64,000 nt of DNA. Origin: Meiothermus sp. Lineage in GTDB: Bacteria; Deinococcota; Deinococci; Deinococcales; Thermaceae. The DNA is taken from positions 2,334,041-2,398,040 of the forward strand of contig NZ_BPIK01000001.1 of NCBI RefSeq assembly GCF_026004075.1, given 5' to 3'. Shown here one piece after another: positions 59,787 to 64,000 of the stretch; position 1 is the stretch's first letter, and the number at the start of each line of letters is the position of its first letter. The position numbers and the translations under genes are program-made. Under the pieces are notes generated by a model. The model was not told the origin of the DNA, did no database searches, and saw only the letters and a list, made by a program, of their open reading frames with translations.

Positions 59787-60812
59787 ACTCAAGTTACGCA
59801 AGGAAGAAAAAAGGCGATAGAATAGGGGTCTTCTGGTGCAACAGGAGACCCCAAGATGAGTATAACCCCGTTGGCGACGTACTTGGAAGCGATGCTGGTG
59901 TCAGTAGATAACCAAAGTTGTAGCGGTTTAGCAGACGGCTTCGATAGCGAATCAATCTCCCACGATTGGTTCCAACGAACACTCAAAGACAGTAAGGTGT
60001 GCTCGTTGTACCAAGACTTGGTCAACAAGTTGGGTTTAGAGGGGGGATACTTGCTCCTAGATGACACCATCTTGGAGAAACACACCCTCGGGATAGAAGG
60101 CATCTGCAAGCTGCTGGACACCAAAACGGGTGGATTCATCTTGGGGTTGAGTGTAGTCTTGTTGTGCTGGAGTGATGGAAAGAAGACCATCCCACTGGCT
60201 TTTCTGCCCTACACCAAAGGCAAGAGCAAGCACGATCTAGCGGTTGAGTTACTCGGGCAAGCCAAGGAATGGGGTCTAACTCCGAAGTACACCTTGTTTG
60301 ATGCCTGGTATGCCAGCCAGAAAGTCCTCAAGACGGTGATACGTTTGGGATGGCACTTTGTCACCCGGCTTAGGAAGAATCGCTATCTGGATGGCAAGCA
60401 GCTCAAGACCCGCTGTCGTCACCCCCACTGGCACACCATCGGCAAGCTCAAAGGCGGAATCGAGGTCAAGGTTTTTCGCAGGGGTAGTAAGTTCTATGCC
60501 ACCAGCGATACCTCACTGGAGTGGAAGACCGTCAAAAAGCTCTACAAGATACGGGCTGAGATCGAGGAGGTTTTCCGAGTGCTCAAGCAGGAGTGTGGCT
60601 GGCAGGGGGTACAACAACGCAACATCAACACCTACAGCCACCACCTGACCTTCGGCCTATTGGCCTACCACTACCTCCAAAGGCTCAAGCTTCAGACCCG
60701 TTCTGGAGTCTTTGTACTCCGTCGCAGGCTCATTTCTCGCAAGTTGACCCTCAATCGAGATGACCTCATCGCCTTCCTGGACACCGCTGCTTGAGTCTTG
60801 CGTAACTTGAGT
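59787..60812 (+). mobile_element. IS4-like insertion sequence (1026 bp)
   Basis: It has inverted terminal repeats ACTCAAGTTACGCAAG (59787-59802) and CTTGCGTAACTTGAGT (60797-60812), which match exactly. GAG stands directly outside both ends. It carries one intact transposase gene and lies inside ISKra4-type element A. Confidence 0.88.
59856..60794 (+). CDS. IS4/IS701-type transposase
   Basis: This 312-aa protein has catalytic residues in LLLDDTILEKHTLG, TLFDAWYASQKVL and EIEEVFRVLKQECGW. The YREK-like region RAEIEEVFRVLKQ supports IS4. It is intact and probably active. Confidence 0.88.
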   Translation: MSITPLATYLEAMLVSVDNQSCSGLADGFDSESISHDWFQRTLKDSKVCSLYQDLVNKLGLEGGYLLLDDTILEKHTLGIEGICKLLDTKTGGFILGLSVVLLCWSDGKKTIPLAFLPYTKGKSKHDLAVELLGQAKEWGLTPKYTLFDAWYASQKVLKTVIRLGWHFVTRLRKNRYLDGKQLKTRCRHPHWHTIGKLKGGIEVKVFRRGSKFYATSDTSLEWKTVKKLYKIRAEIEEVFRVLKQECGWQGVQQRNINTYSHHLTFGLLAYHYLQRLKLQTRSGVFVLRRRLISRKLTLNRDDLIAFLDTAA

Positions 60813-60829
60813 GAGAAAAAGAGGGGGTG

Positions 60830-61360
60830 CTATGACTCCAGACCGTGAGCACCTCCTTTATTATCTTGACGCAAAAACCCTTCTGGTGTTCATCTAGATC
60901 TGGGTGGACGACACCCTCAAGGCCCGCCAAGCCCAAGGCGTTAAGCTCCCCAAACCCCGCCCTCCAAGGCCGGAACCTCGCCAAAGGCCACATGGCCGCC
61001 AAACTCTCAAACCCCTACCCCCTGGCCTACGGCCACCGCATCCACACCCTCTCCTTCCCCCACGCAGCCATCGGAGCAGGCCCCCTCGGAGCTTTTGCGG
61101 GTCATGTCCTGGTAGCGATGATGAACGAGCGGGGCCTCTTTTTCCGCTTCGCCCTTCTGCCGGGGAATGGTCGGGAGAAGAGGATTGGATGGGACGGGTG
61201 AGAAACGGGATTGAGACACGGTTTAGTGTTTGGTGCGTTCGCTTGGGTTCTACCGGATAGAGGCCCGGTCTTGGTGGGGTTTGGTGGCGCGGGTGAACCT
61301 GCTTCTGGTGGCCCACAACCTCATCCGGAGCCGGGTGCTGTTGAAGATGGCGGGGATGAA
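60830..61360 (+). pseudogene. Decayed DDE transposase, remnant 3
   Basis: IWVDDTLKARQAQGVKLPK, then YPLAYGHRIHTLSFPHAAIG and AGPLGAFAGHVLVAMMNERG, with several shifts. Similar to the remnant at 40.0-40.7 kb (LAHGHRIHSLKLPEGAVG), so it is the same family. It is non-functional. Confidence 0.6.
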
Positions 61361-61419
61361 GGTTTGAGGGTAGCTAGCACACGAAGGCATGTGCTCTGAT
61401 CTATCCCCAGAACGGTCGC

Positions 61420-61617
61420 AGTCAGCGCACCCGTTGGGCGGGGTCAGGGAAGCCGGGGCCTATCTGGCCTTGGTATCGGGCCTGCTGCGTCAAGCCGGGG
61501 TCAAGACCGGCGAAACCCTGGTTGCGGCCTCGGACGAGGCTGTTTGGATCGAGAACCTGTGCCAATCCCTGGGGATTCCCCAGGTGATAGACGTATTCTA
61601 TACCACCCAGTACATGT
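61420..61617 (+). pseudogene. ISKra4-type internal fragment
   Basis: LVSGLLRQAGVKTGETLVAA, then SLGIPQVIDVFYTTQYM, matches the middle of the copy B transposase (SGLLRAAGVQRQDEVIGV, LGIPQVIDVFHASQYL). It may be the displaced 3' part of element A. Confidence 0.7.
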
Positions 61618-61747
61618 TCTTTTACGAATTGGAGTTTCATACACAAACTTCGTTGGCAGAACCCAAAGCACAGGTTATAGCTATTCTTGTACTTGGTAAA
61701 ACAATACTTTGGGTGCATCTCTAAAAATCCGTATGCCAGAATAAGGC

Positions 61748-61987
61748 ATGAAAGAGTGGAAAACGAAAGCACGCCAAGCCTTTGAGCGGTACATGGAAGA
61801 CCTGGAACTAAGCCTGGAAGCGGGGAGTGGACTGGCGGAGATCGAACGGGCCATGCTGCGACATAACCCGGAACTCCTCAGGACGCTGATGCAAGGCCTG
61901 GTGGAAGAGACCCAGGCGCCTTCCCCCCCTGGAGCTACCGAAGGGGTGGAGGAGGGTGGGACAACGCACCAGCCAGGTACGCGGTAG
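61748..61987 (+). CDS. ISKra4-type ORF 1
   Basis: This 79-aa protein starts MKEWKTKARQAFERYMEDLE, with SGLAEIERAMLRHNPELLRT, the usual N-terminus of ISKra4 transposases. It overlaps ORF 2 in a +1 frame, so the transposase may be made by frameshifting, or the element has a mutation. Confidence 0.7.
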   Translation: MKEWKTKARQAFERYMEDLELSLEAGSGLAEIERAMLRHNPELLRTLMQGLVEETQAPSPPGATEGVEEGGTTHQPGTR

Positions 61988-63020
61988 CTGGGGGTTTATC
62001 CAGGTCAGGGTACATCGGCTGCGGGACGAGGCGGGACGGGAACACAGCTACCGGCTGGATGGGAGCCTGGACGGCAGTGGGTATACCCCCTGGGTGCTGG
62101 AGCGGCTGCTGGAGCTGGCTGGCCGACTGCCGTATGAGGAGGCAGCGGAGCTGGGCCGCGCCTTCGGCCTGGAGGTGAGCGCAGCGGGGCTGGCCCGGCT
62201 GCATGCGACCTACGGCAAAGCGTTAGAGGAGACGCTCTGTGCCAGCCTGCAGGAGCGGGCCTGGGCGGCTTTGGCCGAGGGGGAGGGACGGGTGATGGTG
62301 CTGGAGGTGGATGGGGTGCGGGTAGCGGGACAACCCCATCCCAGCACCCATCGCTGTGAAGGTATCGAGGTCAAAACCGCCCTGGTTTATCCGCAGCGGG
62401 CTCCTGGTGCGCGCACCCGTATGGCGGGGGTGATGAAGCCCGAGCAACTGCTGCCCCAGCTCTCGGGGCTGCTGCGGGCGGCGGGGGTACAGAGACAGGA
62501 TGAAGTGATTGGGGTCTCAGATGGGGCGGTCTGGATCGAACAGCTCTACCAAACCCTGGGCATCCCCCAGGTGATAGACGTGTTCCATGCCAGTCAGTAT
62601 CTCGAACAGGTCATGCTGGAGCTGGGCTGGTCGGAGGAGGAACGGGCGGAGGAACGTAGGCGCTGGCTGAGGGGGGAGGTGGCGGGTGGGGAGTGGCTAG
62701 GCACCTACTGCCCACCCCCTACCGCTCCTGAGCGGCAGAGCTGGTCGGAAGAGGCCCGCAGCGCAATCCAGTACCTGGAGCAAAGGGCCGATCGGATGGA
62801 CTACCCGGCCTATAAAGCCCGGGGCTGGCCCATCGGTTCAGGCCAGGTGGAGGGGATGAACAAGCATGTTATCGGTGCCCGCATGAAACGCTCGGGGATG
62901 CAGTGGAGTCGCCCTGGGGCTTCGCGCACAGCAGCCCACCGCGCCCAGCTATGTAGTTCCCATCCGCTGGTGGCCTTCGAGGCCCTGAGGTGGAGGGCTT
63001 TCCCTGTACGGAATTGCTGA
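61956..63020 (+). CDS. ISKra4-type transposase
   Basis: The protein is 354 aa. LELAGRLPYEEAAELGRAFG, VMVLEVDGVRVAGQPH, DEVIGVSDGAVWIEQLYQ, VIDVFHASQYL and GSGQVEGMNKHVIGARMKRS are the family's conserved blocks, with the acidic residues of the DDE site. It is probably translated together with ORF 1. Confidence 0.85.
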   Translation: MGQRTSQVRGSWGFIQVRVHRLRDEAGREHSYRLDGSLDGSGYTPWVLERLLELAGRLPYEEAAELGRAFGLEVSAAGLARLHATYGKALEETLCASLQERAWAALAEGEGRVMVLEVDGVRVAGQPHPSTHRCEGIEVKTALVYPQRAPGARTRMAGVMKPEQLLPQLSGLLRAAGVQRQDEVIGVSDGAVWIEQLYQTLGIPQVIDVFHASQYLEQVMLELGWSEEERAEERRRWLRGEVAGGEWLGTYCPPPTAPERQSWSEEARSAIQYLEQRADRMDYPAYKARGWPIGSGQVEGMNKHVIGARMKRSGMQWSRPGASRTAAHRAQLCSSHPLVAFEALRWRAFPVRNC

Positions 63021-63045
63021 GATGCACCCCAATACTTTTGGCAAA

Positions 63046-63074
63046 TTGACAAATAGATTTTTTTGGAGTATGCT
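63046..63074 (+). promoter_or_regulatory. Strong promoter of the 19-aa peptide unit
   Basis: TTGACA and TATGCT are separated by exactly 17 bp, close to consensus and the best promoter seen in the window. TTGGCAAATTGACA and, in the pre-insertion sequence, TTGGTAAAAC form a short direct repeat that the ISKra4-type insertion has separated. Confidence 0.75.
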
Positions 63075-63109
63075 GAATCAGTTTCAACATAAAGGAGGTG
63101 ATCGTAATC

Positions 63110-63169
63110 ATGGCTAAGGTCGTAATGATTAATGCGATTCGCAGGCCGAGATCTTGGATCTACTGGTAG
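63110..63169 (+). CDS. 19-aa peptide or leader ORF
   Basis: MAKVVMINAIRRPRSWIYW, with AAAGGAGGTGATC 6 nt before the ATG, nearly the full anti-SD complement. Promoter, ribosome site and length show a deliberately translated short ORF. Two functions fit: a leader peptide that controls the hairpin and gene behind it (Arg-Pro-Arg and terminal Trp/Tyr codons could stall ribosomes), or a peptide signal or RiPP substrate. Confidence 0.65.
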   Translation: MAKVVMINAIRRPRSWIYW

Positions 63170-63191
63170 TGCGCATTGAAACCGAGGAGTG

Positions 63192-63223
63192 GGCCTGGAG
63201 CCGAGTATAGCTCCAGGCCTTTT
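63192..63223 (+). terminator. 10-bp perfect hairpin followed by TTTT
   Basis: GGCCTGGAGC and GCTCCAGGCC enclose an 8-nt loop and are followed by four T. The hairpin is 22 bp after the peptide stop and 13 bp before the next start, so it could be an attenuator or terminator, or hide the next ribosome site. Confidence 0.65.
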
Positions 63224-63236
63224 GGAAAGGAATTTT

Positions 63237-64000
63237 GTGAATAATCCAGAATTTCGCGCTTTCTGCCTAATTCATGGTGGAAACCCCACGGCCAGGAAAC
63301 AGGCCGCGAATTTTAATTCAGGTTCAGGCCGCACTCGAGCCTTAACGTTGTCGTTTGGAATCTCCCCCGTAGGCGGACCTGCACAACTCGCGCGAACTTC
63401 CCTTGAGCGCATAGGCTCGCATATACCTCCACATCTGGCATATCAACACGCGACCACCTTGAGGGATCTCTGGACGAACCTCCCAACTTACGGAGCATTG
63501 ATTCCACTGATGGATCAAATCAAGTGGCGTCAGCCATTCCGATATCACCCCAGAGAGTACATGTACTGGGTGGTTGCAGATGCAGCCGATCTTTTCTGGA
63601 GCAGCCTCCGTGTAGGTCAGCTGAGAGCGCTACCGCAAGTCATCATCCATGACCTCGATCGTGCAGACGCGTTGTCTCAGCGATTTGCAGCGACCCTGGT
63701 TCGGTATGAACCTTCTCAGGTTACCGTTATCGCAACGCATAAGGCGGCGATAACGGAATTCTTACTTTACGTCCGCGACGTCCCAGTCAGAGAAGTGTAT
63801 TTGGGCCAGCCTATTCCAGAGCTTGAAGCTCATACCCCAACCCCATTAACCCATCACGAAGACTCGAGCACCCTGGATACACGGCGGCAAATCCCGCGCC
63901 GCTTAGCGCAGGCCCGATCGAAACGCAAGCCTCAAATGCTGCTCCGCGAGTTACAGCAAGCTGCCTCTATCTACACTATCGGGGGTTTTTATGAAGCAGC
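63237..64000 (+). CDS. Unknown protein downstream of the 19-aa ORF (runs off the window)
   Basis: The GTG at 63237 follows GGAAAGGAATTTT, and the frame is open for 254 codons to the window end. It starts MNNPEFRAFCLIHGGNPTAR. A central part has alternating hydrophobic strands (VIIHDLDRADALSQRFAATL, VTVIATHKAAITEFLLYVRD), a little like a Walker B strand of a STAND-type ATPase, and a basic linker (RRLAQARSKRKPQ) leads to helices. No family is recognised. Confidence 0.65.
   Translation, partial: MNNPEFRAFCLIHGGNPTARKQAANFNSGSGRTRALTLSFGISPVGGPAQLARTSLERIGSHIPPHLAYQHATTLRDLWTNLPTYGALIPLMDQIKWRQPFRYHPREYMYWVVADAADLFWSSLRVGQLRALPQVIIHDLDRADALSQRFAATLVRYEPSQVTVIATHKAAITEFLLYVRDVPVREVYLGQPIPELEAHTPTPLTHHEDSSTLDTRRQIPRRLAQARSKRKPQMLLRELQQAASIYTIGGFYEA

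Follow-up and report, generated by a model that had tools for sequence, protein, structure and literature searches.

A strong translation start, a 19-codon reading frame and a hairpin at the head of a three-gene Meiothermus operon that may specify a small peptide product

Start signals, hairpin and genes at the locus

The locus lies at the 3′ end of the window, the 64,000-nucleotide stretch of a Meiothermus genome that was analysed (G000:C1:2334041-2398040), and continues into its downstream flank (L002). It comprises a sigma-70-like promoter, a Shine-Dalgarno sequence, a 19-codon open reading frame, a hairpin followed by TTTT, and the first of a series of larger genes (Table 1). An earlier note on this DNA had described TTGACA-17 bp-TATGCT with a near-perfect ribosome site, a 19-codon frame behind it, a perfect 10-bp hairpin with TTTT, and an unknown gene with a weaker ribosome site. 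All of these are present, the first ribosome site being a 13-nt perfect match and the run behind the hairpin consisting of only four T. Followed past the end of the window, the unknown gene proves to head three genes, which encode a TPR protein, an HprK-like protein and an MFS transporter.

Table 1. Features of the locus (window positions, except those with the prefix L002 or G000:C1)
Feature	Position	Strand	Remarks
IS element, 1,319 bp	61711-63029	+	transposase ORF 61956-63020
Sigma-70-like promoter TTGACA-17-TATGCT	63046-63051 (TTGACA), 63069-63074 (TATGCT)	+	17-nt spacer; outside the IS
Shine-Dalgarno sequence AAAGGAGGTGATC	63091-63103	+	13-nt perfect complement of the 16S 3′ end
19-codon ORF MAKVVMINAIRRPRSWIYW	63110-63169	+	candidate precursor (or leader) peptide
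CAGGCC, possible antiterminator strand	63142-63147	+	codons 11-13; only complement of at least 6 nt to the hairpin left arm
Hairpin and TTTT	63192-63223	+	arms 63192-63201/63210-63219
TPR protein, 624 aa	63237-64000, on to G000:C1:2399151	+	GTG start; Shine-Dalgarno GGAAAGGA at 63224-63231
HprK-like protein, 339 aa	L002:4149-5168		beyond the window; weak family scores, conserved P-loop
MFS transporter	L002:5165-6391		beyond the window; third gene, overlaps the HprK-like gene by 4 bp

The promoter has 10 of 12 matches and is the sole sigma-70-like hit in positions 60000-64000; shuffled sequences give 1.3 such hits on average, so that the promoter alone is no rarer than chance. The Shine-Dalgarno sequence has three exact copies in the genome, the two others being the antisense of 16S 3′ ends, and the runner-up ribosome site before any start codon in the window has a 10-nt match. 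Spacing from GGAGG to ATG is 11 nt, above the ideal. The start signal of the short frame is non-random; the length of the frame is itself ordinary, 19 open codons being not unusual by chance. The encoded peptide is cationic and has an aromatic end, Trp-Ile-Tyr-Trp, with Ser15 in an internal position and Tyr18 present; no secretion signal is visible in it.

The hairpin consists of 10 perfect pairs and one G-U pair around a loop of 8 and has a folding energy of -22.7 kcal/mol. The fold of the region has a z of -2.7, and none of 200 shuffles was as stable. Its 3′ T run is TTTT only, and the structure is absent from the list of a terminator scan whose rule required at least five T in eight; an Rfam search gave no match. 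The hairpin with its TTTT is probably a leaky terminator, or a 3′ stabiliser of the peptide mRNA.

The three downstream genes are joined by successive 4-bp overlaps. In the TPR protein the repeats occupy the C-terminal part; the N-terminal ~250 aa gave no match to a Pfam or PHROG family and no convincing one to a PDB chain, and no helix-turn-helix family was matched in the protein. A likeness of residues ~110-195 to the Walker-B/sensor region of STAND ATPases, seen by eye, was set aside when family searches gave it no support. The HprK-like protein has sub-threshold scores, both to Pfam Hpr_kinase_C (E 0.0022) and to HprK-related kinases A/B (E about 1.6e-6), and keeps the P-loop GxxxxGKS and DD. 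AlphaFold models made without relatives had pLDDT values of 37 and 31 and were unusable. No recognised RiPP class enzyme and no peptidase was found in the operon, and no PqqD in the genome.

Genomic setting and relatives of the operon

Upstream, an intact insertion sequence ends 16 bp before the -35 box. It is flanked by a 9-bp target duplication, CAATACTTT (61702-61710 and 63030-63038), and its border is fixed by a second copy at G000:C1 that is 100% identical and has a different 9-bp duplication of its own. The element is a recent arrival. We considered it as the supplier of the promoter and rejected the idea: the element stops at 63029, before the -35 box, which leaves the promoter outside it. 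A Pfam search of its transposase gave no hit and no family name. Just upstream of the intact copy is a piece of a second, related transposase (61389-61724).

On its other side the operon borders on a GmrSD/DUF262-type gene (L002:7088-8851; PADLOC HEC-05-like), with an ArdC-like antirestriction gene behind it; the setting is that of a mobile neighbourhood of defence type. Farther out, some 9-13 kb past the operon (L002:15276-19001, on G000:C1), lies a block no shorter than 3.7 kb that comprises a P450, an IS transposase and an ORF with a partial match to the model for the aminoglycoside nucleotidyltransferase ANT(4')-I. In the five other species-level genomes compared, other genera included, its identity is 99.97-100%, the result either of a very recent spread or of an artefact in assembly. 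The P450 was rejected as a partner of the peptide: six other species-level genomes carry it with 100% identity, and in these the operon was not found, nor was any homologue of the HprK-like protein or of the TPR N-terminus.

GC content across the operon is about 0.51-0.57 (about 54%), compared with 0.617 for the window, and a search of 111 Deinococcota genomes returned no close relative of the HprK-like gene or of the TPR N-terminus; the operon has therefore probably been acquired horizontally. The TPR protein had no relative in 390 genomes from 285 genera and none in viral contigs, and neither the peptide nor the TPR N-terminus had a convincing relative in plasmids. A protein search of 61 genomes likewise gave no convincing relative of the peptide, and the pattern RRPR-x-WIYW-stop had no match in viral contigs. 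Peptide matches of 44-62% in relatives were dismissed as chance, since none of them has a start codon and ribosome site in the corresponding position.

Relatives of the HprK-like protein are distant only, with 20-28% identity over the aligned length. Searched against contigs on its own it found no relative; the 80 distant HprK loci picked up with a degenerate HprK alignment had neither a TPR N-terminus nor a related MFS nearby. Several of the best HprK matches lie in lasso/PqqD clusters, namely a paeninodin cluster (Priestia plasmid) and PqqD/asparagine-synthase clusters of Azospirillum and Halopiger, and at Bacillus/Paenibacillus HprK loci the neighbouring ORFs resemble, by eye, lasso synthase, PqqD and B2 genes. 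Other relatives, in Acidobacteriota, stand beside genes that do not look like RiPP genes. A 27% match in genome G089 does not represent the present operon. We also observed a weak similarity (25%, E 0.2) to agnE1 of the agrocin 84 cluster (pAgK84).

For the MFS transporter, a genus-mate (G010) has a homologue that is 63% identical and stands alone (L129:9729-10946), with its own TTGACA-17-TATATT promoter and with neither a leader ORF nor a hairpin. The peptide therefore goes with the TPR/HprK part of the operon and not with the pump. The homologue adjoins a tyrosine integrase, which suggests that this pump family also travels alone on mobile elements.

What the unit may make or control

We propose, tentatively and with somewhat less than even confidence, that the locus opens an operon, gained by horizontal transfer, whose product is a small RiPP-like peptide made on the ribosome. 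The strong promoter and near-ideal ribosome site would give a high output of a 19-residue cationic, aromatic-ended precursor, and the hairpin with its short T run would stop most transcripts after the precursor, leaving it in excess over the enzymes. A hairpin between precursor and enzyme genes is a common layout in RiPP operons, in which the precursor exceeds the enzymes; a literature search on this point returned nothing. Read-through would yield the TPR protein, which may bind or scaffold the peptide, together with the HprK-like protein, which may phosphorylate it at Ser15 or Tyr18 or activate it in some other way with ATP, and the MFS exporter would then release the product and protect the cell.

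What favours a peptide-product operon is the strong precursor start split by the hairpin from the enzymes, together with the HprK-like protein and the exporter. The earlier note had offered two options, attenuation of the downstream gene or a new peptide system. The TPR, HprK-like and MFS genes speak for the latter, because in lasso pathways HprK homologues are known to act as kinases on precursor peptides (PMC8498205). Several findings tell against it: neither the peptide nor the TPR N-terminus has relatives in the genomes, plasmids or viral contigs searched, so that conservation is lacking; the operon contains no recognised RiPP class enzyme or peptidase, and the genome no PqqD; HprK-like genes occur outside RiPP clusters too; and lasso kinases target a C-terminal Ser, whereas the Ser in the present peptide is internal. 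That the operon defines a new ribosomal peptide class, in which a 19-residue precursor with a Trp-Ile-Tyr-Trp end is processed by no more than a TPR scaffold, its N-terminus without a known family, and an HprK-like kinase, and is exported by the MFS pump, we regard as unlikely. Were the locus a peptide-product operon, it would be a minimal pathway in Deinococcota that uses a kinase-like enzyme and lacks any recognised RiPP recognition element, and its 19-codon precursor would escape gene callers.

The unit is real, compact and unusual, and the evidence does not firmly separate a peptide product from leader-peptide attenuation, the leading alternative, which we consider rather unlikely. According to this model, efficient translation of the short frame would mask CAGGCC, the hairpin would form and transcription would stop; with ribosomes slowed by an antibiotic or by amino acid shortage, CAGGCC would pair with GGCCTG in the left arm, and transcription would pass on into the operon and its MFS pump gene. 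The gene order agrees with that of B. subtilis bmrB-bmrCD (PMC4191407) and of mef(E)L-mef(E) (PMC4335068), in each of which a short ORF, a hairpin and an efflux gene follow one another. The competing fold (63134-63209) reaches -23.9 kcal/mol, as against -22.7 for the hairpin, but the gain from the alternative pairing is equalled in 55-100 of 400 dinucleotide shuffles (14-25%). RPR in the peptide fits the Arg/Lys-X-Arg/Lys motif at which ketolides and macrolides stall ribosomes (PMC8298421), yet a ribosome stalled there would sit on CAGGCC and so promote the terminator. The peptide's two Trp are not in tandem, and the genes downstream include none for amino acid biosynthesis. Of a translated short frame ahead of an intrinsic terminator, the locus shows a strong start signal and a 10-bp hairpin, with four T only. 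The closest MFS homologue, that of G010, is without any leader, and TPR and HprK-like proteins would be odd cargo for a resistance operon. If the unit were an attenuator, an operon that carries a pump would be under the control of a leader peptide in Deinococcota, a phylum in which no control of this sort is known to us.

It is also conceivable, although distinctly unlikely, that the strong translation start belonged to a gene that rearrangement has since removed, leaving the short frame as a functionless relic. In favour of this are the IS-rich surroundings, in which a recent insertion ends 16 bp short of the promoter, the lack of conservation, and the length of 19 codons, which chance readily produces. 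Against it, the stop codon is closely followed by the hairpin and then by the ribosome site of the next gene, none of the operon genes is disrupted, and both the hairpin and the start signal are far from chance. The adjoining of peptide and TPR genes, with an exporter gene in the operon, would suit a signal that is exported, clipped and, in the manner of RRNPP systems, sensed by the TPR protein. The peptide has no visible secretion signal, however, its gene is upstream of the TPR gene, and the TPR protein matches no helix-turn-helix family, and we judge signalling of this kind to be quite improbable. RRNPP systems combine a TPR receptor, with an HTH or phosphatase-type N-terminus, and a secreted pro-peptide, a combination that was not recognised here. 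A true crocagin-type precursor, served by CgnB/C/E enzymes elsewhere in the genome, appears very improbable. The C-terminal Ile-Tyr-Trp, the length (19 versus 21) and the spacing of Arg11 and Arg14 from the C-terminus, which equals that of Arg13 and Lys16 in CgnA (PMC10070186), fit such an origin, but the operon proteins are TPR, HprK-like and MFS proteins, none assigned by family search as a dioxygenase or as aminopeptidase-like (M29-type).

Comparison with known systems

With the crocagin cluster of Chondromyces crocatus (cgnA-cgnE), to which the earlier note had likened the peptide, the locus shares a very short cationic precursor ending in Ile-Tyr-Trp. The resemblance of that end is real; it is also post hoc, as is the agreement of MAKVVMINAIRRPRSWIYW with a crocagin precursor in having about 20 aa, an x-Tyr-Trp end and a cationic leader. 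MFS transporters are named among the genes of crocagin-like clusters (PMC10070186). Unlike crocagin, the present operon contains, by family assignment, no recognised CgnB/CgnE pair and no recognised CgnC dioxygenase, with TPR and HprK-like proteins instead, and because no crocagin protein is recognised in the operon we do not claim membership.

The atropopeptide and biarylitide P450 pathways likewise use a tiny Trp/Tyr-rich peptide, and a P450 lies about 10 kb downstream of the present one; it sits in a separate mobile block, however, and is not precursor-linked. Like bmrB-bmrCD and mef(E)L-mef(E)/mel, the locus has a short ORF with a strong ribosome site, a hairpin with a T run and an efflux gene downstream. 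It differs from them in that its antiterminator is no better than chance, two non-pump genes precede the pump, and the nearest homologue of the pump has no leader.

Paeninodin-type lasso clusters contain a lasso cyclase (Asn-synthetase-like), B1/PqqD and a B2 protease, all of which are missing from the operon, PqqD genome-wide. The present peptide also departs from theirs in ending with Trp and in having its Ser at 15, and the exporter is an MFS protein, not an ABC exporter. What the locus has in common with these clusters is an HprK-like P-loop protein encoded beside a small peptide gene.
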